Source: Spirochaetaceae bacterium
GTDB taxonomy: Bacteria > Spirochaetota > Spirochaetia > WTKD01
Direction: 5' to 3'
Length of the DNA: 64,000 nt
Assembly: GCA_011524535.1 (NCBI GenBank)
Contig: WTKD01000005.1
Location: 124,001 to 188,000 of the forward strand
Shown one piece after another: positions 13,244 to 37,987 of this stretch; positions within the stretch are counted from its first letter, which is position 1; every line of letters begins with the position of its first letter. The position numbers and the translations under genes were made by a program. The notes beneath the pieces were generated by a model. It had not been told where the DNA came from. It did no database searches and saw nothing but the letters and a program-made list of their open reading frames with translations.

Positions 13244-14002
13244 ATGCAAACCAGAGCGAAATTTTTTTTGATAATATTCTTATTCTTGTCCGCATCCCTG
13301 TATGCATACCCGGCGTATAACGTAGGGTCCGGTATTGCTACCTATCTGATAGCTCCTACTTCAACAGAATTAAGAGAAAAATTTAACAATGTTTCTAACG
13401 ATGACGCAAACGATGCTTACAAATACCTTGCTGCGGCTCCCTTGTCTATACAGTCGATCCGAATATATGGACAATTTGAGTTATTCCTTACAAGAAGAAA
13501 TGCATTATTTCTATCCTACGCGTATTCCGATGAACTCCAATTAAAGGACATTAGCTACGAGGACGACGATGATTTTGCCTTTCTTACAAGTAACACAAAT
13601 TCACATCACATCGATCTTGGATATGTCCATATGATTCCAATTTCGAGATATCTAGAACTCAGAGCTGGCCTATTTGCGGCAACCGCATTTCAATTCCAAA
13701 CCATAGATTTAACTACCAACAATAGTACTCAGGCTAATTGGAAAGATGAGATGTTTCCAGCAATAGGGGGTGGTGTCACTGTAGGAGCTAATCTAGTCCT
13801 CAGCCGTAGGTTTCGATTAGGTGCTCACGTAAACGCTACAGCACTCTGGCGACTGAATTATATGGAAGGTATCATTCCAGATATGGGCAATATCGCTATA
13901 AGTTCTGAGGATATGGACAATCATTTGTCTGAAGTTCACCGGCTATTCGAAACATCTAGCATACGTCTGCTCGTCTCGTATCTTATTGGCCCTCTCGATT
14001 AG
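13244..14002 (+). CDS. Probable outer-membrane beta-barrel protein
   Basis: 252 residues with a signal peptide cleaved near SASLYA-YPAYN (about residue 21). The rest alternates in beta-strand fashion (for example IRIYGQFELFL, ELRAGLFAATAFQF, RFRLGAHVNATALWRL) with acidic turns, as in small outer-membrane barrels. It is not obviously a paralogue of the two preceding genes. No strong Shine-Dalgarno sequence is seen; a weak TTGTTT-N15-TATACA promoter (13206-13232) lies just upstream. It overlaps the convergent C11 peptidase gene by 4 bp. Confidence 0.55.
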   Translation: MQTRAKFFLIIFLFLSASLYAYPAYNVGSGIATYLIAPTSTELREKFNNVSNDDANDAYKYLAAAPLSIQSIRIYGQFELFLTRRNALFLSYAYSDELQLKDISYEDDDDFAFLTSNTNSHHIDLGYVHMIPISRYLELRAGLFAATAFQFQTIDLTTNNSTQANWKDEMFPAIGGGVTVGANLVLSRRFRLGAHVNATALWRLNYMEGIIPDMGNIAISSEDMDNHLSEVHRLFETSSIRLLVSYLIGPLD

Positions 14003-15315
14003 TCGATAAATAGCTCTTTCAGAAAACCATCTCCACTCCAGCGTGTATCGGAGATAAAAGATGACGCAGTAGACCCTGTCTTTTTGTAATAGTTATCATA
14101 TTCCGATATTGCTGCATTCGAGAGTTTTCCAAGATACAATGACATCCCACCTGGATGAGATGGCCCATCAGGTTCTTTTGCAATCACTACCCTTGATATA
14201 GCATTCTCTAAATTTTCAACAAGCAATTGTTCTTCAGAAGATAATTCATTGAATAAAAAAGAAGCTCGTAACACTTGCAAGAAATTATATACATCTACAT
14301 GGGCATCACCCTCACCTGCATCATCTTCAATCCATAATGTCGTTTTTGGAAAAAGATTCGATCTGTTCAATAACAATGACCGCAATTCCTCTTTCAGAAT
14401 TTCATCCCCTAAAAAATCATCAAACCCAGCAAGCAAATTATCCCAATCGGTTGCAAATGAACCAATCCTACTGGGCAACACCGCGGAATATGGGAAAAAA
14501 TCACCGTAGGTGTCATTATAAATTCTAACGATAAAGCGTGCGACCGTTAAAATTTCGCGATCTGACTGAACAATCGATTCAATTACCGTGCTATAATCCC
14601 ATCCAGTGATCCTGACATTTTCCTGTGATGCAATAAATATAGATGGTGTGTTCTTTAACTCATATATCACTTCTATATTTGCACCTATACAGGCATCGAG
14701 AGCAATAATATCAATACTTGAAGAAGAAAAAACCTTTCCTAACTCGGTGATTGTAAGATTGGTTTGTATATCTCCGGCGCTATCATAGGCAATCCCACGA
14801 AAAACGTTGGGAGCATATCCATCAGAGGACAGCGATTTGTACCCATCTCCATGCCCCCACAATACCATCAATTTTTTATGATCGGAATAATTATCTTCTA
14901 TATAGGATGTGAATCCCTTGAGTGTCTCCTCCTGACCCATATCAAGCTCCTCCCTGGCATTTACTGTCAGACCAAGTCTTGGTATTGCAATTTCCGTTCT
15001 TATTCCATTAGAAATTCTGTAGGCTCGTGTATCACTCCAGTCTGATGTATCGCTTGGATCAGAATATGCGGTGGCATACCGATCAACAAGTACTATGGTT
15101 ACCACATCATCCGATTTGACATCTTCAATTTCTCTGATGTCCTCCATAACCACTCTATGTAGATCATGAAAATCAGCGGACATATACAATCCAATAACCC
15201 AAGGGTCGACTGTTTGTCTTCCTTGTACCTGACAAGAGAGAAATACAAGGAGGCTAAAAAAGAGCGAGGTGTATTTCAGGTTCCTCCCCAAAAAATCCAA
15301 TATATCATCGCGCAC
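13999..15315 (-). CDS. Clostripain-family (peptidase C11) lipoprotein 1
   Basis: 438 residues from GTG 15315, chosen because AGAGGTGG lies 5 nt upstream; an ATG at 15336 would add seven residues. The signal sequence ends in the lipobox LVFLSC (Cys28). The C11 catalytic pair is intact: His155 in LWGHGDGY and Cys209 in ALDACIGAN. Clostripain-type enzymes are Arg/Lys-directed cysteine proteases. As a lipoprotein it would act at the cell envelope. It lies downstream of the paralogue at 15346, 30 bp away on the same strand. Confidence 0.85.
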   Translation of the reverse strand: MRDDILDFLGRNLKYTSLFFSLLVFLSCQVQGRQTVDPWVIGLYMSADFHDLHRVVMEDIREIEDVKSDDVVTIVLVDRYATAYSDPSDTSDWSDTRAYRISNGIRTEIAIPRLGLTVNAREELDMGQEETLKGFTSYIEDNYSDHKKLMVLWGHGDGYKSLSSDGYAPNVFRGIAYDSAGDIQTNLTITELGKVFSSSSIDIIALDACIGANIEVIYELKNTPSIFIASQENVRITGWDYSTVIESIVQSDREILTVARFIVRIYNDTYGDFFPYSAVLPSRIGSFATDWDNLLAGFDDFLGDEILKEELRSLLLNRSNLFPKTTLWIEDDAGEGDAHVDVYNFLQVLRASFLFNELSSEEQLLVENLENAISRVVIAKEPDGPSHPGGMSLYLGKLSNAAISEYDNYYKKTGSTASSFISDTRWSGDGFLKELFID

Positions 15316-15345
15316 GAAATCCACCTCTTGCATCATTCAGAATAT

Positions 15346-16740
15346 TCATCGAGCATATAGCAGGTAATAGAGAAGCCCGCTTCTATTTCTGATATCTGGA
15401 ACCCAATCAGAATCAGCAACAAATGCCAATGGGTAGCTAACCGATTCACCCCGAATATAATAATATCCGTGCGGATAGTTAGATATCGAACCGTTTTCAT
15501 TTACGAGTGTGAGCGCAATGGATAAACCACTCGAACGAGAATTTCCTACACTGTGTGCCCATTGTGCGATGATGGCCTCCTCCATTGCCTCTTGGAGCTC
15601 TCCTGCTTCTATTCGCACTCCTGTAGAAAGAAACGAAGCATCGCTGTCCTGAAGCCTACTTCCAAAATGTACCGCTAGATCATGAAGATCGAGACTGAAC
15701 ATCCCAGGCAAAACAACTATGTCCTCTACATTGGTGAATAATTCTACAAGCAATTCTTCTCGAGCCCCTCTATCGTTCATAACTGTTTCCGACAACGCCC
15801 TCGAAAAATCATTCAATTCGTGATAAACCCAGTCCATTTTACTAAGATCTATCGCTCCAATGGTAGAATAAGCATTTTCCTTGTAGCGATCTTCGAATGC
15901 AGAAACAACCGACCTGCCCAAATCCTCTGGGCTACCCGATGTAACCATAAATTTTAGCAACAAATAATCATATTCCCACCCGTCAGCAAGTTCCAAATCA
16001 GGAGAAGCAACAAACACGTCTGCTGAATTCCTTAGTTCATAGGCAACCTCGATATTCCCCCCCAAGCAGGAGTCAAAACCAACAAGAGATATATCATGCT
16101 CATTGAGAGTGGTTGCTATCGATTGTGTGTATAAAGCATCGAAATTATCTGAATAGTCATAAGAAACAAGTTTTGTCAGCTCCTCTTCTTCCTCTTCTTC
16201 TAAATTACGAAAACCACTCCCATGCCCCCAAAAAACGATTCCGACATGATCGCTGTCATATCGATTTGTTCCATCTTTTATAAAAGCCTGTAATGTATCT
16301 GGGTCCCCCATGTTCAGTTCAACATCCTGTCCAAGATCCAACCCTAGTTCTACAGAAGTAAGTTGTTGAGAAACAAAAAAATCAGAATCTATCTCATCAT
16401 GTTGTATTTCATACAACCGAGTACCGGTCCAATCTCCATTTGCTGTACTGTAGCCTGGGGCCCGATCAATAAGAACCAATACCTTGACCCCATGTTGTGA
16501 GAAATCAAAGGCAGCTTCAAGTTCATTGATATCCTCAATCGCATATGGTTCCAGATCGTTGTCTGCACTCATATAGATTAACAAAGTCCACGATTCTTTA
16601 TGAAATTCTGATGATTTAAACAAAGAAGCATCGAACTCAAAATCATCGCTACCTATTTGTCTTATTTCGGGTTCTGTAATTCTAGAGTCGCAGGCAAAGA
16701 TCAACGCACCAAATAATATTATTATGATAAACACTTTCAT
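15346..16740 (-). CDS. Clostripain-family (peptidase C11) lipoprotein 2
   Basis: 464 residues. The signal peptide ends in the lipobox LIFAC (Cys17). C11 motifs: LLIYMSADNDLEPYA (53-67), His173 in FWGHGSGF and Cys225 in GFDSCLGGN. A run of seven glutamates (181-187) directly after the His motif is an insertion in the loop beside the active site. It is paralogous to the gene at 13999, suggesting tandem duplication followed by divergence. Cotranscription from the COG3014 gene upstream (46-bp gap) is possible. Confidence 0.87.
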   Translation of the reverse strand: MKVFIIIILFGALIFACDSRITEPEIRQIGSDDFEFDASLFKSSEFHKESWTLLIYMSADNDLEPYAIEDINELEAAFDFSQHGVKVLVLIDRAPGYSTANGDWTGTRLYEIQHDEIDSDFFVSQQLTSVELGLDLGQDVELNMGDPDTLQAFIKDGTNRYDSDHVGIVFWGHGSGFRNLEEEEEEELTKLVSYDYSDNFDALYTQSIATTLNEHDISLVGFDSCLGGNIEVAYELRNSADVFVASPDLELADGWEYDYLLLKFMVTSGSPEDLGRSVVSAFEDRYKENAYSTIGAIDLSKMDWVYHELNDFSRALSETVMNDRGAREELLVELFTNVEDIVVLPGMFSLDLHDLAVHFGSRLQDSDASFLSTGVRIEAGELQEAMEEAIIAQWAHSVGNSRSSGLSIALTLVNENGSISNYPHGYYYIRGESVSYPLAFVADSDWVPDIRNRSGLLYYLLYAR

Positions 16741-18850: not shown

Positions 18851-19816
18851 ATGAGAGTCGTATTGCTGTTGCTTTTCTTTGGATTGCTACATTCTTTACT
18901 CTTTGCAGGTGGTTCTCAAATCGGCCCTCAAAATGGAGAGGTCTTGGTTCTGCTCCCTCAAAGAAACGATTTTCATTCCCAACTTATGCTCGATGCAATC
19001 CGAACGAGAGCCTTGAAGGATAGCATAGGTGTACAGGTTGGCTTTTTTGAACAATCGGATCCCACTGACGTGGCCTCTACCTTTCTTTCCTCCTCCAAAC
19101 AATATCGAGCTATGATCGTCCTGATGGATGAAGAATCAGGAGAATACACGCAACAACTAGTAGAAGATTCTCAAGAAAACAATACCCCAATTATCTTTTC
19201 AGGTTTTTGGTCCGAAGAACTGGAAGAAGTAGAATATTTTGTTGGATCAACGCTGGATGAAAGAGAAATTCTGAAAGAATATATGCTAGATATTTCCAAA
19301 GACAATCCAATAAGCGCAGGATTATTTCTTAGAAACTTAGGTACTCAAAAAATTGAATTCCTTCTTGATGATGCGTACGAACCTGAAATTCTTTCCTATT
19401 TTGATCCTTTTGACATTCAGGAAATACTCCTTGGAAAGGACGTATCCATCAATAATCTATCACTAATATTAGAAGCCACCATCCTTGAAACTTCAATACC
19501 GCCCACTTTGTTGATAGCCGAAACAGCACTTACAGCAGTATATGCCGCACAATTTCTCCGTAATAATCAATTAGAAGGATCCATTCCTCTAATTAGCTTG
19601 GAAATAAATCCTGATATCATCTCATTGATGGAAGAAAAACGTATCCATGCCGCCATGTATACAGATGCTTATACGCTTGGAACCGCTGTTATGGATGTTG
19701 CCTATGGGGTGCTATCAAAAAGAAAGGATATACCCATTCCAGATACTCTAACTCAAATGATTGAATCAGAAGAAGCTAGCAATATGTGGCCTGACCCTCT
19801 TGTGTATCCAAGATAA
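18851..19816 (+). CDS. Periplasmic-binding-fold protein (sugar-binding type), no transporter nearby
   Basis: 321 residues with an N-terminal signal sequence (hydrophobic to about residue 20, LLFAGGS). Two Rossmann-like halves can be traced: EVLVLLPQRNDFHSQLMLDAIRT at the start, then a later PTLLIAETALTAVYAAQFL and HAAMYTDAYTLGTAVMDVAYGVL, which resembles the hinge and C-terminal part of LacI/ribose-binding type proteins. No permease or ATPase gene lies beside it, so it may sense or deliver a ligand for a component encoded elsewhere. It shares one base with the next lipoprotein gene. Confidence 0.6.
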   Translation: MRVVLLLLFFGLLHSLLFAGGSQIGPQNGEVLVLLPQRNDFHSQLMLDAIRTRALKDSIGVQVGFFEQSDPTDVASTFLSSSKQYRAMIVLMDEESGEYTQQLVEDSQENNTPIIFSGFWSEELEEVEYFVGSTLDEREILKEYMLDISKDNPISAGLFLRNLGTQKIEFLLDDAYEPEILSYFDPFDIQEILLGKDVSINNLSLILEATILETSIPPTLLIAETALTAVYAAQFLRNNQLEGSIPLISLEINPDIISLMEEKRIHAAMYTDAYTLGTAVMDVAYGVLSKRKDIPIPDTLTQMIESEEASNMWPDPLVYPR

Positions 19817-20331
19817 TGATCAAAATATTCTTATACGTACTACTTAGTGTTTACAGCTTATATTCCTGCCAAACAACCGAACCTTCCATAGATGCCTTAT
19901 CGGATACTGAACCTTCAGCCACAGAATCGGTGCCCAGGTTTGTCAGAGAAATTGCCTTCAATAGCAATCAATTAACCCTCACCGTAATTGTCGAGAGTGA
20001 AGGCTCAGCAATCACCGAGAGCGTTCTACTCGAACGTTTTGCACTTGAGCGAACACAAGCATTGGATACAATCATTACAACAGCAAATCAATATTCGCAG
20101 GACGATGCTTTGGAAGGAGAAGAAGCAAATGCTACCTTAGAAAAGGTCCAGGAAATATGGACAGACTACCTACGTATTCGACAATACACATCGACTCAAC
20201 AAGGAAGTGCTTATTTACAAGCGAGCATCAATATATCTAGCTTTCTAGAAGCACTTGACCCTCTTCAATTATCAACAGAATACCTCTCTGCAATAACTAT
20301 TGCCTTGAGTCAGTACACCAGTGAACAATAA
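19816..20331 (+). CDS. Small lipoprotein of unknown function
   Basis: 171 residues; signal sequence with lipobox SLYSC (Cys18), then a Ser/Thr/Glu-rich linker and a soluble domain of about 130 residues that looks mostly helical after residue 70. The start ATG shares its A with the TAA stop of the binding-protein gene, so the two are translationally coupled and probably work together at the envelope. No family recognised. It converges on the phosphoglycerate kinase gene with only one base between the stops. Confidence 0.6.
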   Translation: MIKIFLYVLLSVYSLYSCQTTEPSIDALSDTEPSATESVPRFVREIAFNSNQLTLTVIVESEGSAITESVLLERFALERTQALDTIITTANQYSQDDALEGEEANATLEKVQEIWTDYLRIRQYTSTQQGSAYLQASINISSFLEALDPLQLSTEYLSAITIALSQYTSEQ

Positions 20332-20332
20332 T

Positions 20333-21634
20333 TTATCTCCGTACAGCGCCATTATGCGAAATCGGATGATCTATGTTCTGGTGTGCTGTTTTCAATGATT
20401 CGATAAGCGGTAAATGAACGCCAGAAACATATCTTAGCATCGCACCCCCACCTGTGCTTACATAGTTAAAATTCGATAGTTTTGAAAACTTTTTAAGAGC
20501 CGCGACACTGTCTCCACCGCCGATAATTGTATAGGCAGGAGAACAAGCAATAGCGTCCCACAATACTCGAGTTCCCCTAGCTCCCGCCTCTTCCTCATAA
20601 CACCCGACCGGGCCATTTATCACTATAGTATTTGCTTCTGATACTATCTTTGTAAACAATGCGATACTTTCGGTACCAATATCGTAACAAAAATTGTGGA
20701 AATGAAAGTCTGAAATATTAATCGATGTGTATTCTTGACCAATGGCACATATGAGGTCTACGGGCAAAATGATTCTATCTGAAAATTTCTTCAATATTCG
20801 TTTAGCAAGGGGTAGGAAAGAGAATGCTTGAATACGATTCAGAAATCGAAGATAGTCCTCATGAAAATGAATACCCTGCGCATACAACATCACCATAGCC
20901 GGCAGCCCACCACACAGGACTTTATCGACAATATTGTTTTCAAAGGCTGGTTCAATAACAGAAAATGCATCAGAAACCTTTGCCCCCCCCAATAAAAAAT
21001 GACAAGGAGTTCTTTCTAAGGAATGCGTAACATTCAAAGCCTCGATTTCTTTTTGGAACTGTATTCCTATCGCCGATGGCAATAGCTCCTGGAATGCCAA
21101 AATAGATGGGGATCTACGATGAGCTGCGGAAAATGCATCAATTACTACACAATCAAATAATGGAGCCAAATTTCGAATGAGATAGGTTTCGGTCATACGC
21201 TCAACCGATAGATGAACTACTTCATCGAATACCGATATTTCTTCTGAAAGATAGCGAAGATTATCTAAAAGTAACACTTCGCCTGGTTTCAATTTTGCGA
21301 TACATTCTCTCGCATAGGGCCCTGCAATATCATCGATAAATCGAACGGGTTTACCTATGTTTGATTCGATAATCTTTGCATGTTCCGAAAGGCTGCAAAC
21401 ATTCACATAATCAATAGTATCTCCTTGATGAGCAATGATCACAACTGCTGCATCACGTTCGCACAGGTAATGCAAACTTGCCATACTTTCAATGATTCGG
21501 GATTTATCTGCAATTTTCTTTGTTCTCCGATCCAAGGGAACATTGATATCTATACGCAGTAGAACTTTCTTTTTGAAAACATCGATGTTGACAAGTTCTG
21601 TGAACACGGAGTTAGACAAGCTCAAGGTATTCAT
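20333..21634 (-). CDS. pgk: Archaeal-type phosphoglycerate kinase
   Basis: 433 residues from ATG 21634; an upstream in-frame ATG at 21694 lies within the preceding gene. RIDINVPLD, the AHQG motif, DAFSAAHRRSPS, GGAKVSDAF, IINGPVG-like INGPVGCYE and GGGDS...VSTGGGAMLRYVSG are all PGK motifs, and DAFSAAHRRSPS, AHQGD and LAPLFD are closer to archaeal PGK than to the common bacterial form. It catalyses ATP formation from 1,3-bisphosphoglycerate. It follows the type II GAPDH-like gene with a 23-bp overlap. Confidence 0.85.
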   Translation of the reverse strand: MNTLSLSNSVFTELVNIDVFKKKVLLRIDINVPLDRRTKKIADKSRIIESMASLHYLCERDAAVVIIAHQGDTIDYVNVCSLSEHAKIIESNIGKPVRFIDDIAGPYARECIAKLKPGEVLLLDNLRYLSEEISVFDEVVHLSVERMTETYLIRNLAPLFDCVVIDAFSAAHRRSPSILAFQELLPSAIGIQFQKEIEALNVTHSLERTPCHFLLGGAKVSDAFSVIEPAFENNIVDKVLCGGLPAMVMLYAQGIHFHEDYLRFLNRIQAFSFLPLAKRILKKFSDRIILPVDLICAIGQEYTSINISDFHFHNFCYDIGTESIALFTKIVSEANTIVINGPVGCYEEEAGARGTRVLWDAIACSPAYTIIGGGDSVAALKKFSKLSNFNYVSTGGGAMLRYVSGVHLPLIESLKTAHQNIDHPISHNGAVRR

Positions 21635-22625
21635 TTGTGCGAAGAATAGCCGTCGTATTATTCTTCTGCAGAGCACACGATGCGCGTATTGCATCTATGC
21701 ATTCAGGGATGATTATGCCTTCAGGAAGCATGCCGATGCTAAAAAATACATCATTTCCCATACATTGAATGCTGTCTTCCCATACAAATACTTCATGCAG
21801 ATCGTTTCGTAATGCGCTAAGATTATTAGCATAATTAAACAAAGAAGCATCTCCATGAAATCCCTGTTCGGTTTTTCCTACACGTATACGCTTATCGTCT
21901 TTAAGAAGATCCCCAAATTGTTCTTCTGTCATCGGTTTAGTCGTTGACATATGCAAAGATATCAAATGACCGTAGGATGTGGGAATATATATAAGAGTGC
22001 TCATGGCCTGGATATGGGGTATGAATTGCATTGTCTTATTCGCATGCAGGTGGGTAGTCGCATCGATCTCCATCGAATTCATAAGTCCTTGTGTATGGCT
22101 CCCCGGAGAGGCGTTCCGATGCATAACCGTAGCGGTGAGTCGCTCAATACGAACCGCTCTATCAACGACATCAACGACGCGCAACATACCTACAAGACTT
22201 GGTTGAGGTAATTGCAAGAATTGCTTTCCCCGTCCTTTTTCGTAATTAATATAAGAATGAAAATAGCATTGCGATACTAATTCATCTTCCCCACTTTGAA
22301 AAATGGCATGCTTTTTACCTCTTTCATACAACACCCTGTTTTGTTCACCCACACCAGGGGAAGACATGTCCACAATAATATCCGCTTCTCGAACAAGATC
22401 GGCTATCGTTCCAGAGGTCGGTATATCTTTATCTGCAAACATCTCTACATTTTCATGCGAAGAACCAAAGAAAGCATAGGGCATACCCCTCTCTTTTAAA
22501 GAGCGAACCGCCAACGTATACGAATTGTCGGAAACTCCTATCAATTCCATGTCTTTTTGCACAATGATGTCATCCGCCACGCGTTGCCCCATAGTGCCAA
22601 ATCCAACTACTCCAACCTTAACCAT
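21612..22625 (-). CDS. Type II (archaeal-type) GAPDH-like protein lacking the catalytic cysteine
   Basis: 337 residues. N-terminal Rossmann motif GVVGFGTMGQRVAD, the IVDMSSPGVGEQN segment, FQSGEDE and the C-terminal IIIPECIDAIRAS are those of archaeal type II glyceraldehyde-3-phosphate dehydrogenase. The active-site SCNTT is replaced: residues 140-146 read PQPSLVG, so the nucleophilic cysteine aligns with Pro142. Flanking sequence stays in register (RVVDVVDRAVRIERLTATVMHR), so this is not a frameshift. Normal thioester chemistry is impossible; it may bind a sugar phosphate, act on another substrate or regulate. SD AAGGAGG precedes ATG 22625. Confidence 0.75.
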   Translation of the reverse strand: MVKVGVVGFGTMGQRVADDIIVQKDMELIGVSDNSYTLAVRSLKERGMPYAFFGSSHENVEMFADKDIPTSGTIADLVREADIIVDMSSPGVGEQNRVLYERGKKHAIFQSGEDELVSQCYFHSYINYEKGRGKQFLQLPQPSLVGMLRVVDVVDRAVRIERLTATVMHRNASPGSHTQGLMNSMEIDATTHLHANKTMQFIPHIQAMSTLIYIPTSYGHLISLHMSTTKPMTEEQFGDLLKDDKRIRVGKTEQGFHGDASLFNYANNLSALRNDLHEVFVWEDSIQCMGNDVFFSIGMLPEGIIIPECIDAIRASCALQKNNTTAILRTNEYLELV

Positions 22626-22629
22626 ACCC

Positions 22630-23586
22630 TTACACCTCCTTATATGCGTGCATTATTTTTTCGGCCAATGCCTTTCCAGTTAATGAAAATCGTTCTGCTA
22701 GATAACCCATGTCACCTACCTCACCAAATGTTCCCTGTATACCGCATCGAATTACGGTGACAGGGCACGACTCACTGACAAATTCTACAATAGCTCCACC
22801 CAAACCGCCAACCGCTTGATGATTTTCACATGTCACCAATAATGCATGATTCTTAGCGACATGCCGCAATGTGGCCTCATCGATGGGTTTGATACTATAA
22901 AAATCATATACAGACGCTGAAATGCCTTTCTGTAAAAGAATATCTGCCGCTTCCAAGCAGGCGCACAGAGAAAGCATCCCCGCTCCCAAGAAGCACACGT
23001 CTCGACCAGAGCGGAGGCATAGTGAAGAGCCTATTGGTGCTTCTATATCTTCGTTGTATAACGTTCGCTTCTCTCGCCGAGGTAGGCGAATATAGTAGGT
23101 TGCATCTGCAAGAATAGCTTGCTCCAATACATCTGCCAATATGTATCGATCCGTTGGTTCGGTCACTACTGTATCAGGAATAACACGCATCAATGCTACG
23201 TCTTCAAAACACATATGTGTCGCCCCGTTGTATGTTGCGTACACACCAGGATCACTACCAATGATGGTAATCGGGTTTTTTCCCAACCCTGAGGAAACGA
23301 ATGTCTGATCGTAGCACCGACGTGATGCGAAAGAAGCAAAACTATGCACCACGGGAATCAGTCCCATCGCACTCATCCCGGACGCAATACCAATCATATT
23401 CGCCTCTGCAACACCAACATTGACTATGCGTTCGGGAAACATAGCCTCAATAGCTTCAAATCCATGTGCATACATAAGATCTGCCTGAATCAAAACGATT
23501 TTCTCGTGTTTTTTCATCAAAGCAATCATGACTTCTGCATAAGCCTGTCGCATTTCTATATCTTGTTCGAGTGGTTTAACTGTCAT
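22630..23586 (-). CDS. Transketolase, C-terminal (pyrimidine-binding/C) subunit
   Basis: 318 residues from ATG 23586, which overlaps the stop of the N-terminal subunit by 11 nt (coupled translation); two earlier in-frame starts lie further inside that gene. The sequence VGVAEANMIGIASGMSAMGLIPVVHSFASF carries the catalytic Glu of the TPP pyrimidine site and YCHQ-like phosphate-binding residues follow. The split N/C arrangement is common in archaea and several bacteria. The pair moves two-carbon units between sugar phosphates. Confidence 0.88.
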   Translation of the reverse strand: MTVKPLEQDIEMRQAYAEVMIALMKKHEKIVLIQADLMYAHGFEAIEAMFPERIVNVGVAEANMIGIASGMSAMGLIPVVHSFASFASRRCYDQTFVSSGLGKNPITIIGSDPGVYATYNGATHMCFEDVALMRVIPDTVVTEPTDRYILADVLEQAILADATYYIRLPRREKRTLYNEDIEAPIGSSLCLRSGRDVCFLGAGMLSLCACLEAADILLQKGISASVYDFYSIKPIDEATLRHVAKNHALLVTCENHQAVGGLGGAIVEFVSESCPVTVIRCGIQGTFGEVGDMGYLAERFSLTGKALAEKIMHAYKEV

Positions 23587-24454
23587 AGTGAATATGGGTA
23601 GCACATAGGGTTATATCTTTTTTTGAAACGTTCAAATGATGTGAAACTCGACGCCCTTCCAAGTCTGGATGCCCCTTCCCCTTGATCGTATCGCAAATAA
23701 TCATCTGCGGTCTTTTCGCAGTTGCGCCAAGCTCTCTGAGTTCTTCTATCGTATTATATAAGGCTTGAAAATCATGTCCGTCAATTCTTCGCGTTATCCA
23801 TCCAAAACTATTCCATTTTGCTTCAAGGTCTTCCAAGTCCATAACGTTTTTGGTTGGACCATCTATTTGAAACTTATTGCAGTCTACAAATCCCATGAGA
23901 TTACCGAGTCCAAAATGGGCACAAGACATCGCGGCTTCCCATGTCTGACCTTCGTCGCATTCCCCATCGCTCAATAATGCATACACATGCAAATTTGACT
24001 TTTTTATCCGGGCAGCGTAAGCCATTCCTATCGCCATAGACAATCCTTGCCCCAACGATCCTGTGGTACAATCAACCCCTGGAGTTAAGAGATGATCAAC
24101 ATGGCTTGGTAAACGAGTTCCCCCTCGGTTCATCGTCCAAAGAAGGGAAGAATCAAAAAAGCCCCTGCGAGCGAGAATACTATATAGACATGGTCCTGCA
24201 TGGCCTTTCGAAAGCACAAATCGATCTCTTTCTGGATCTTCTGGATGCTCTGCATCTACGCATAGATATAGCTCGTATAAGATAACGAGTATCTCCACCA
24301 CAGACAAAGATCCTCCCATATGCCCAAGTCCAGCTTCGGCAATCATGGTGACTATATCTATCCTGGTTTTCTTTGCCAAAGAAACTAGTCGCTTTTCAAG
24401 CTCTTCAGAATATTCTGTTTTCTTGTTTGACAGAGTTTTTGACGAGTTGTACAT
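23576..24454 (-). CDS. Transketolase, N-terminal (TPP-binding) subunit
   Basis: 292 residues. LGHMGGSLSVVEILVILY, DRFVLSKGHAGPCLYSIL, GSLGQGLSMAIGMAYAARI and the TPP motif SDGECDEGQTWEAAM...N are all present. It corresponds to the first half of ordinary transketolase and pairs with the gene at 22630. It starts 19 bp after the tRNA-Leu gene, whose transcript probably also carries it. Confidence 0.9.
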   Translation of the reverse strand: MYNSSKTLSNKKTEYSEELEKRLVSLAKKTRIDIVTMIAEAGLGHMGGSLSVVEILVILYELYLCVDAEHPEDPERDRFVLSKGHAGPCLYSILARRGFFDSSLLWTMNRGGTRLPSHVDHLLTPGVDCTTGSLGQGLSMAIGMAYAARIKKSNLHVYALLSDGECDEGQTWEAAMSCAHFGLGNLMGFVDCNKFQIDGPTKNVMDLEDLEAKWNSFGWITRRIDGHDFQALYNTIEELRELGATAKRPQMIICDTIKGKGHPDLEGRRVSHHLNVSKKDITLCATHIHYDS

Positions 24455-24473
24455 ACTCAGATCACGAAGTTAT

Positions 24474-24557
24474 TGCCGGCGGGGAGATTCGAACTCCCAC
24501 AAGATTGCTCTCGGTAGATTTTGAGTCTACTGCGTCTACCAGTTCCGCCACGCCGGC
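24474..24557 (-). tRNA. tRNA-Leu (anticodon CAA)
   Basis: 84 nt. Acceptor arms GCCGGCG/CGCCGGC pair over 7 bp with discriminator A; the anticodon stem GTAGA/TCTAC closes the loop CTCAAAA (anticodon CAA); the T arm is GGGAG-TTCGAAT-CTCCC; a long variable arm makes it class II, as for leucine. CCA is not encoded. It lies 3 bp from the stop of the UMP kinase gene and 19 bp before the transketolase gene, so it is embedded in a protein-coding transcript. Confidence 0.95.
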
Positions 24558-24560
24558 CTA

Positions 24561-25250
24561 TCAGCCAATCACCGTTCCTATTGCTACAGTGTTCGTGACA
24601 CCACCTACAATATCTCTAATGATATCAGGATTCTGACCATTTGCAATATATACACGTAATAAATTCTCACTCGCTAGTTTCGATGCAATCGGATCGAATG
24701 GGGCATGAAGTCCGGGTTTCCAAGAAAGATCTTGAAATAACCGAAAATATTGATCCCAACTCAGCTCATCGATCGGCGCAGCATCAGAATATGTCCTTGG
24801 GTCCTTGTCATATATGTGTGAAACATTTGAAAAGTTGTATACCGCTCCCGCATTACTCTTCTGTGCTAAATATACACTCACCGTATCTGTAGAGAATCCT
24901 GGTTTCCACCCCCCCATAACAACAAATTGAGAATCATGTATTGCAAAAGCCTCATCTGGCGAACATGGTACTGGCATAGGTGCATCAAGAAGAGCTGCTA
25001 GGATACTTGCATTCACCCGTGTTGCAGCTATGCCTAAAAGGTCAAGTGTATCATGATCAACCTCGGGGGAGACTACTCGAAGACTTTGTTGATATTCTCT
25101 GGCAATCGATCCGCCGCCAACAACGATGTATATCCGGACATCCCTATCTCGCACATCATGCAGCAAACGTCGAAATTGATCTATATAAGATTCCGAGATG
25201 CCGTCTGGGCAAATCAGTGATCCACCAAGAGAAAACACAAAAGTACGCAT
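24561..25250 (-). CDS. pyrH: Archaeal-type UMP kinase
   Basis: 229 residues of the amino-acid-kinase fold. FSLGGSL (residues 6-12), VVGGGSIAREYQ and KDPRTYSDA fit uridylate kinase; the length and the DTLDLLGIAATRVNASILAALL segment are nearer the archaeal UMP kinase subgroup than E. coli PyrH. It phosphorylates UMP to UDP. It stands between the ADP-ribosylglycohydrolase-like gene (16-bp gap) and tRNA-Leu. Confidence 0.85.
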   Translation of the reverse strand: MRTFVFSLGGSLICPDGISESYIDQFRRLLHDVRDRDVRIYIVVGGGSIAREYQQSLRVVSPEVDHDTLDLLGIAATRVNASILAALLDAPMPVPCSPDEAFAIHDSQFVVMGGWKPGFSTDTVSVYLAQKSNAGAVYNFSNVSHIYDKDPRTYSDAAPIDELSWDQYFRLFQDLSWKPGLHAPFDPIASKLASENLLRVYIANGQNPDIIRDIVGGVTNTVAIGTVIG

Positions 25251-27661: not shown

Positions 27662-28720
27662 TTAGGCTCGCATAATGTGCACATGTTCGTTCGGAAAATG
27701 AACCGCAACCTGCTCTCCTACAGAAAGCTTCCTCTGGGGGGATACGTTCGCATGTACACGTGCGTCGTCAACAGCAATAATCATGGTTCTTTTGCTTCCC
27801 CGTTCCTTCACGGCAACAATTTCTCCCTTAAGGGTGTTCTTTTTCCGTGAACCAGGAGCAAGAACATCTACAAAGTCTGGATGACAGGTAAAGACACCTT
27901 TTTGCAAAGTTTCATGAGGCTGTCCAGAAGCATCATGCAAATATATAGTCTTGCCATTGTGTTCAATTGTGTTCTCGTTTATTCTACGGAACGATAATGC
28001 ATTCTTGTTGCCCAACAATACCGCCACAGCAGTGTGCACAGGGCGATGAAACACATTTAGAGACGAGTCAAACTGAAGAAGCGAAGAATCGTATAGGACA
28101 CCAATTTTTTGTGAAAGCATCATAGCCTCAACCGGGTTATGAGTAACTAGAATCGCAGAAGATCCGCTTTCTTCGCATAGAACTCGGAATACTTCGTACA
28201 TGTCTTCACGAAGATGTGTGTCAAAGGCTGAGAAAGGTTCGTCGAGGAGTACAACAGCCTTGTTTAAAATGAACGTTCTGGCAAATGCCACTCGCTGCTG
28301 TTGCCCATGCGACAACGTCTTTGGATAGTCATTTAATTTATCCGCTATTTTAAGCGTGTTAGCAAAAAAATCTACGCGTCGGTTTTGCTCCGCACGAGGA
28401 ACTCCCTGCATACGAAGCCCAAAAGCAATGTTTTCATGTACCGTCAAAAATGGAAATAGGGTCAAATCTTGGAAAATCATACCAATTGGACGCTTCTCCG
28501 GAGGCATATCATTCAGCATCCTTCCATTAACCGCCACCGAGCCAGCGTTTGGTTGGAGAAGCCCTACAATAACTTTCAACAGGCTCGTCTTTCCCTCTCC
28601 AGAAGCCCCTAGAAAAGCAACTATCTCACGTTGACCCACATCAAAATCGACACCTGAGAATACCGGCTTTCCATTAAAGGATTTCATAAGGCCCCTAACG
28701 GACAACACATTATTCTTCAT
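27662..28720 (-). CDS. ABC transporter ATPase with TOBE domain (FbpC/PotA type)
   Basis: 353 residues from ATG 28720, which overlaps the upstream permease stop as ATGA. Walker A GASGEGKTS, signature LSHGQQQRVAFAR, Walker B VVLLDEPFSAFD and the H-loop VTHNPVEA are intact. Residues after ~240 form a TOBE-type domain (NKNALSFRR..., KGEIVAVKERGSKR). It would energise uptake for the two permeases upstream. E. coli YnjD, the ATPase of the matching system, is only about 217 residues, so this longer FbpC/PotA-like ATPase is a difference. Confidence 0.9.
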   Translation of the reverse strand: MKNNVLSVRGLMKSFNGKPVFSGVDFDVGQREIVAFLGASGEGKTSLLKVIVGLLQPNAGSVAVNGRMLNDMPPEKRPIGMIFQDLTLFPFLTVHENIAFGLRMQGVPRAEQNRRVDFFANTLKIADKLNDYPKTLSHGQQQRVAFARTFILNKAVVLLDEPFSAFDTHLREDMYEVFRVLCEESGSSAILVTHNPVEAMMLSQKIGVLYDSSLLQFDSSLNVFHRPVHTAVAVLLGNKNALSFRRINENTIEHNGKTIYLHDASGQPHETLQKGVFTCHPDFVDVLAPGSRKKNTLKGEIVAVKERGSKRTMIIAVDDARVHANVSPQRKLSVGEQVAVHFPNEHVHIMRA

Positions 28721-29484
28721 ACCAGCCATGGGACCCACCTAAAATACCATCTGTGCACAAAGGCAACACCTAGTAGAGGTACAAGAAACACCCATGCCAC
28801 AGCACCAGCGAGCGGAAAATTCCCGGAATATACAAAACTTATAAACTGTGTGGTTATTGTTGGTATTCTTCCTCCTGCGATGACCACATTTGGCACGTAC
28901 TGATGCCATGACAAAAAGAATACCATGGTCATAGTGTACATCAAAGATGGCATCATCATTGGCATATATACATGCATCACCCTGTTTATCCAGCCAATAC
29001 CCATTGCCCGTGACTGATCCCCCATCGTCAAAACATCTGATTGAATGCTTCCTTTCAACACGTAAATACTAAACGGCAAGGCTATAAGAATGTGGACAAG
29101 TATCAATCCCACATACGTGCCGGTTAATCCGATACGTAGAAAAAATCGAAATAATCCAAACGTGACCGCCAGAGGAGGCATAAAAAACGATGCCACAAGA
29201 ATATGGTCCGATATCGGATATCGCTTGACCACAAAAACTATAGGAAATGCCAGTCCTGTTGTAAACAAAGCGACAAGGATCGCAACCAAAAGACTGTTAA
29301 AAACTGAAACCCCAAGATTGTATCGAGGAGAAAATATCGCCCACCACGATTCCAAGGTGAATTCCTTTGGCAGAAGTTCAGGATACAGCCATTCTTTTCC
29401 AAAAGTAAATAAGCCACTCACCAAAAGTGGCAAAAGTGTTGTGATTGCTAACATTATAACTATCAGCACATACCATCGTTTCAT
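28717..29484 (-). CDS. ABC transporter permease (second half of YnjC-like pair)
   Basis: 255 residues with about six membrane helices. The BPD_transp_1 EAA-type loop is around residues 148-168 (DQSRAMGIGWINRVMHVYMPMMMPS), where the permease contacts the ATPase. It overlaps the upstream permease and the downstream ATPase genes by ATGA, so the four genes are coupled. In E. coli the two permease halves are fused in YnjC. Confidence 0.88.
   Translation of the reverse strand: MKRWYVLIVIMLAITTLLPLLVSGLFTFGKEWLYPELLPKEFTLESWWAIFSPRYNLGVSVFNSLLVAILVALFTTGLAFPIVFVVKRYPISDHILVASFFMPPLAVTFGLFRFFLRIGLTGTYVGLILVHILIALPFSIYVLKGSIQSDVLTMGDQSRAMGIGWINRVMHVYMPMMMPSLMYTMTMVFFLSWHQYVPNVVIAGGRIPTITTQFISFVYSGNFPLAGAVAWVFLVPLLGVAFVHRWYFRWVPWLV

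Positions 29485-35753: not shown

Positions 35754-37987
<2,234 letters not shown>

Follow-up and report, generated by a model that had tools for sequence, protein, structure and literature searches.

The window analyzed here is a 64,000-nucleotide stretch of a Spirochaetaceae genome (GenBank assembly GCA_011524535.1, contig WTKD01000005.1, positions 124,001 to 188,000). At 20333-25250 it carries a tightly packed block, with small gaps or overlaps between genes, that encodes a UMP kinase, a tRNA-Leu, the two halves of a split transketolase, a protein resembling type II glyceraldehyde-3-phosphate dehydrogenase (GAPDH), and a protein resembling phosphoglycerate kinase (PGK). In the order of transcription, the features are as follows.

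24561..25250, minus strand: UMP kinase (pyrH) of the archaeal/spirochaete type, outside the cassette described below (TIGR02076 pyrH_arch, 189.9 bits; cut-off, 158.05)
24474..24557, minus strand: tRNA-Leu(CAA), directly behind the UMP kinase (ARAGORN and Rfam)
23576..24454, minus strand: tktN, thiamine-diphosphate-binding half of a split transketolase (Pfam and NCBIfam)
22630..23604, minus strand: open reading frame (ORF) of tktC, pyrimidine-binding and C-terminal half of the split transketolase (Pfam and NCBIfam)
21612..22625, minus strand: gap2, type II GAPDH-like, without the catalytic cysteine (C142P) (NF003251, 280.4 bits; cut-off, 185)
20333..21634, minus strand: pgk, PGK-like acyl-phosphate kinase of the cassette type, with Asp at the R65 position (PF00162, 325 bits, with residue table and tree)

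The first cassette gene begins 20 bp beyond the tRNA-Leu. Within tktC, an in-frame ATG at 23586 is a possible start. The pgk ORF spans 20333-21694 and begins within gap2; with its likely start, the ATG at 21634, it overlaps the gap2 end. Against a second family model, TIGR01546, gap2 scored 217.4, under the cut-off of 232.9. The block was unremarkable in base composition and codon use.

The host assembly belongs to the spirochaete class, is reduced (1.42 Mb) and 96% complete, and had no relative closer than class level among the 60 that we compared. It also carries a bacterial GAPDH with an intact SCTTN motif and a bacterial PGK on contig C7 (contig, genome, family, and locus labels of this kind are our own), and a 668-amino-acid open frame with a transketolase pyrimidine-binding domain on contig C2. 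Because the host has these ordinary enzymes elsewhere, the window cluster is an extra, second set. A first-pass annotation of this DNA had named the genes, placed them on one strand with the tRNA between the UMP kinase and the rest, and noted the enolase at 36710-37987, all of which agreed with our analysis. Its claim that the central pathway is a mosaic, with a bacterial enolase and the rest archaeal, did not survive the finding of the bacterial GAPDH, PGK, and transketolase.

A bacterial four-gene cassette

We examined the neighborhoods of the best 80 of 445 confirmed type II GAPDH candidates in a collection of named bacterial genomes, some of whose stored stretches are short. These loci span Clostridia, Anaerolineae, Spirochaetota, Thermotogae, Atribacteria, Poribacteria, Planctomycetes, and Kiritimatiellia; Clostridium magnum (L131) and Sphaerochaeta halotolerans (L191) are among the species with the cassette. 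All 80 have a same-type PGK gene on the gap2 strand, no more than 500 bp away, and 36 of the 80 also have a full tktN and tktC. The order gap2-pgk-tktN-tktC was found in 31 of these four-gene loci and the window's order, tktN-tktC-gap2-pgk, in 5, 3 of which are spirochaete records, so that conservation of this order across the phylum, which the first-pass annotation had said would refute entry of the block, was partly observed.

The window has the same gene content, adjacency, and single strand. We built gap2 and pgk trees from hand-picked subsets of the homologues. The window gap2 fell within a 42-row cassette group (support, 100/100) and the window PGK within a 28-row cassette group (99/96), with the archaeal structures outside in both cases; the archaeal references were four GAPDHs and one PGK, too few to speak to the deeper origin of the cassette, and the tktN and tktC trees had no outgroup. 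These results show that the window block is a member of a bacterial four-gene cassette. Within the spirochaete class, type II GAPDH was present in 24 of 394 genomes, the host's own included, and the phylum set gave 15 of 392, again including the host. Because the cassette is patchy in the class, horizontal transfer between bacteria is likely, and the donor was not shown to be archaeal. A plasmid search returned only relatives at about 28% identity, from another group, and a scan of viral contigs with the window protein returned no relative.

We considered whether an archaeal gene block entered at the tRNA-Leu and runs part of glycolysis here, as the first-pass annotation had proposed. The family-level likeness to archaeal proteins, the start 20 bp beyond the tRNA, and the patchy distribution in the class all favor such an origin. 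However, the trees place the window copies inside the bacterial cassette, the host has complete bacterial glycolytic enzymes elsewhere, and the GAPDH-like protein lacks its catalytic cysteine. In addition, the 64-kb window contains the tRNA 3' end just once, and we saw no integrase among the Pfam-scanned genes at 18.9-38.0 kb, a set without the small ORFs in which three genes (19816-20331, 28717-29484, and 35754-36695) matched nothing. We regard this explanation as highly improbable, and an archaeal origin of the block is refuted in the main.

The UMP kinase does not belong to the cassette, nor is it an imported archaeal form. Of 60 class genomes, 51 have a match to the archaeal-type family (TIGR02076) that exceeds the cut-off, and in the UMP kinase tree the window copy grouped with 29 relatives (99/98), separate from three archaeal structures. 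When we scanned the short flanks of this gene in 26 relatives, the UMP kinase was followed directly by tRNA-Leu(CAA) on the same strand in three, which are all three genomes of one family (f19; G018, G041, and G058). Two further genomes (G053 and G013) have tRNA-Leu(CAA) about 1.1 kb downstream of the UMP kinase on the same strand. Since the pair recurs, the tRNA end is single in the window, and composition is ordinary, the tRNA-Leu is an old UMP kinase neighbor rather than a demonstrated site of entry.

We therefore rejected both tRNA-directed insertion, given the lack of a repeat, the lack of a visible integrase, and a UMP kinase-tRNA pair common to other spirochaetes, and archaeal import, given the trees and neighborhoods. 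What stood of the earlier account is that all four metabolic proteins come from families originally recognized in archaea and that, beyond the tRNA, their genes make up a single block.

The cassette PGKs differ from canonical PGKs at a position that we take to be the basic residue of the 3-phosphoglycerate site (R65 in yeast numbering). All 31 canonical PGKs have Arg here and Pyrococcus 2cun, the nearest solved relative of the window PGK, has Lys, whereas the residue is Asp, Ser, or Gly in 93 of 93 cassette PGKs and Asp in the window. Most active-site residues of 2cun are otherwise kept in the window protein, with D23, N25, R38, H62, R121, R168, and K215 all present. Because the basic residue is replaced throughout the cassette PGKs, the alignment speaks against 3-phosphoglycerate as the substrate.

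Cassette neighbors and a possible inositol route

Clustering of the ORFs in the 80 loci showed that, after gap2 and pgk, the most frequent genes were LarA-like (46 loci), tktC (39), tktN (38), iolD (35), iolE (35), iolB (33), iolG (31), and malic enzyme (30). A tartrate/D-malate dehydrogenase (TTC) gene was found in 4 of the 80, and sugar ABC transporter parts came next. When representatives of these neighbors were compared with NCBIfam, IolD, IolE, IolG, and the TTC tartrate/D-malate dehydrogenase scored over their cut-offs. The LarA-like representative (locus L191) fit best to the malate racemase LarAH6, at 389.7 of 500. A racemase-like, malic enzyme, or TTC gene was present in 55 of the 80 loci and, counted by hand, in 28 of the 36 with both tktN and tktC.

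None of the 80 neighborhoods had a close IolC, the single match being one of 23% identity. We extended the IolC count to whole genomes for 23 of the 25 loci that have tktN, tktC, and an iol gene, and IolC was over the cut-off in 1 of these 23 genomes. Six genomes of the spirochaete class (G003, G009, G021, G035, G046, and G049, the last with broken fragments) have IolD over the cut-off and neither IolC nor type II GAPDH over theirs.

These neighbors suggest that the cassette in relatives probably breaks down inositol through D-malate by an undescribed route. The cassette substrate would be 2-deoxy-5-keto-D-gluconate, the product of IolB. By our own reasoning from Fischer projections, this compound read from C6 would be a D-threo ketose, equivalent to D-xylulose 5-phosphate with CH2-COO- replacing CH2-OPO3. 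TktNC would move the C5-C6 ketol unit onto glyceraldehyde 3-phosphate; the products would be xylulose 5-phosphate and (R)-malate semialdehyde, the latter an analogue of glyceraldehyde 3-phosphate. The "GAPDH" could then convert malate semialdehyde to malyl phosphate by phosphorylating oxidation, and the "PGK" would yield D-malate and ATP. D-Malate would reach pyruvate through a racemase and malic enzyme or through D-malate dehydrogenase; ordinary malic enzyme takes the other isomer, which would explain why either a racemase for malate or a D-malate dehydrogenase accompanies the cassette.

The proposed route resembles two known pathways. In the sulfoglycolytic transketolase (sulfo-TK) pathway, a split transketolase, SqwGH, acts on a sulfonated hexulose. 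There, as predicted here, the substrate of the split transketolase is a sugar-acid analogue of a phosphosugar, and glyceraldehyde 3-phosphate receives the C2 unit, but the predicted substrate here is 2-deoxy-5-keto-gluconate, and GAPDH- and PGK-like steps to D-malate would follow. The classical iol pathway (IolG-E-D-B-C-J-A) shares with the cassette loci the genes for IolG, IolE, IolD, and IolB, which adjoin the cassette in relatives. In contrast to that pathway, which gives dihydroxyacetone phosphate and malonate semialdehyde, the cassette lacks a close IolC in its neighborhoods and is predicted to give D-malate, ATP, and xylulose 5-phosphate. The nickel malate racemase LarAH6/MAR2 is the best NCBIfam match of the LarA-like neighbor in L191, although that protein is under the curated cut-off and the host genome has no such gene.

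In the open-licence papers searched, we found no description of this inositol route and no paper that combines a type II GAPDH with a transketolase. Term look-ups in two inositol papers (PMC9430895 and PMC8355322) found no mention of transketolase. The Discussion of PMC7583248 calls the in vivo roles of nickel malate racemases an important remaining question.

A different explanation is that the cassette is everywhere a second lower-glycolysis and pentose set, using glyceraldehyde 3-phosphate and induced on sugars, with the malate genes incidental. The Pfam and NCBIfam family names point that way, and some class genomes have second GAPDH copies. However, such a set would be hard to reconcile with the loss of the basic residue at R65 from every cassette PGK in the alignment, with a LarAH6-like, malic enzyme, or D-malate dehydrogenase gene in 55 of 80 neighborhoods, or with the lack of a close iolC. 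Moreover, four class relatives (G024, G029, G045, and G057) have the cassette in addition to an ordinary GAPDH and PGK. We consider this explanation doubtful.

A neighborhood on contig C3 of G029 (L004/L032) has gap2-pgk without tkt genes, beside an HpaI-type aldolase gene and an L-fucose-isomerase-like gene, both named by eye. This neighborhood is possibly another source of the same aldehyde.

The cysteine-less window dehydrogenase and its host

For analysis of conserved columns, we removed duplicate rows and those that fell short of set limits on length and identity, which left 97 gap2, 93 pgk, 35 tktN, and 37 tktC sequences. The window gap2 reads QPSLV in place of SCNTT, with Pro at the catalytic Cys, which is present in 97 of 97 homologues. 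A search of the phylum found no Cys-less homologue, and all eight further matches there keep the Cys. By eye, the reading frames on either side of the motif stay aligned and SCNTT appears in none of the other frames, so we rejected a local frameshift hiding the motif.

Of the columns that are at least 97% conserved, the window gap2 keeps 83 of 135 (61%), compared with 66 of 79 (84%) for pgk, 64 of 70 (91%) for tktN, and 55 of 62 (89%) for tktC. Among controls from the same genome, UMP kinase kept 38 of 44 (86%), the canonical PGK 95 of 109 (87%), and the canonical GAPDH 62 of 65 (95%). The gap2 losses cluster at residues 140-220, with 30 of 49 columns lost versus 22 of 86 elsewhere (Fisher P = 9 × 10−5). 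We used conserved columns with housekeeping controls instead of branch length because the host lineage evolves fast: the canonical PGK branch is 1.79 (0.32-0.54 in others), and the UMP kinase end branch is 3.25 (median, 0.31), nearly as long as the window gap2 branch of 3.78. We therefore dropped the idea of a gap2-specific speed-up drawn from branch length.

The gap2 fold is predicted to be intact. The AlphaFold model had a pLDDT of 83.6 and a pTM of 0.87, with a weak loop at 172-180, and its best Foldseek matches were the archaeal type II GAPDHs 2czc and 1b7g. The window protein has about 30% identity to the archaeal enzymes (2czc, 1b7g, 1cf2, and 2yyy) and keeps their fold, the NAD-binding half, and His220, which aligns with the histidine of the archaeal LMH motif and presumably lies opposite the catalytic cysteine. 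It departs from them in the Pro at the catalytic Cys and in the rebuilt region 140-220. The L121 gap2 also lacks many conserved columns (42) and keeps the Cys. The type II GAPDH homologue of L232 (genome G600) keeps the Cys within SCYVTG instead of SCNTTG and sits on a long branch (1.62); it is perhaps a second remodeled cassette dehydrogenase.

In the host genome, we found neither IolD nor IolC over the cut-offs, no Lar_N domain, and no malic enzyme N-domain, the D-malate dehydrogenase family not having been searched for. The pairing of IolD with a D-malate-using enzyme in one genome was thus not seen in the host among the families searched. No inositol-linked gene was present among the Pfam matches of the block's flanks, and we rejected a broader functional link between the cassette and its surroundings here. 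The host therefore lacks the companion enzymes tested and has lost the catalytic Cys, and because of these two losses the window cassette cannot carry out the proposed route in its present form.

Our preferred reading, to which we assign a probability of about 0.6, is that the block is a diverged, orphaned, and remodeled copy of a bacterial cassette, which has an inositol/D-malate role in relatives and whose dehydrogenase has been rebuilt here. In the host, the inositol partners would be gone, while the transketolase and the kinase would still be kept by selection. The rebuilt active site would not form an acyl phosphate through a thioester. The window gap2 would most likely now be a plain NAD(P)-dependent oxidoreductase, with hydride transfer and no thioester, or a noncatalytic, structural partner, working on another transketolase aldehyde. 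We also lean, with slightly less conviction, toward the wider proposition that the inositol/D-malate route operates in many anaerobes (Clostridia, Anaerolineae, spirochaetes, Thermotogae, Atribacteria, and others) while this host keeps the cassette without the route, its GAPDH now a Cys-free enzyme of other function.

The main rival is that the cassette is a relict, in which inositol catabolism was lost, the genes are decaying with the dehydrogenase first, and nothing is made from them. The missing companion genes, the lost gap2 active site, and the reduced 1.42-Mb genome are all consistent with decay. However, the four closely packed frames are all open, codon use is normal, the gap2 model is confident, and pgk, tktN, and tktC keep 84 to 91% of conserved columns, like host housekeeping genes. 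We regard a relict as rather unlikely on this balance and prefer the remodeled cassette.

Several observations weigh against the preferred reading. The IolB (105 of 205), malic enzyme, and LarA-like representatives are under their curated cut-offs. No iolB, iolD, or iolE is seen in the stored stretch of 42 of the 80 loci; the full tktN-tktC pair is missing from 44, and 25 are without a gene for a racemase, malic enzyme, or D-malate dehydrogenase. IolC is over the cut-off in only two of eight IolD-bearing spirochaetes without type II GAPDH over the cut-off, and because it is rare there also, its absence is not diagnostic. For the host, a partner gene could be absent from an assembly that is 96% complete, the lineage is fast overall so that the gap2 branch alone is not unusual, and there is no near relative for measuring selection. 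Because 42 loci show none of the three iol genes, the cassette may serve other sources of the same aldehyde too.

The Pfam-identified flanks of the block encode an ABC transporter, an FAD oxidase, an HMG-CoA reductase, and the enolase. The HMG-CoA reductase (PF00368, 33322-34497) probably indicates a mevalonate route in this spirochaete. At 13999-16740, two adjoining genes encode clostripain-family (Peptidase_C11) proteins with lipoprotein-like starts.

The window offers a natural case in which a GAPDH homologue kept its fold and its operon and lost its nucleophile. The likely role of the cassette in relatives is a more important result than the window copy. If the proposed route is true, genes annotated as archaeal glycolysis would constitute a new branch of inositol catabolism that yields energy for anaerobes of gut and sediment, iol clusters without iolC would be explained, and a group of nickel malate racemases would gain an in vivo role.

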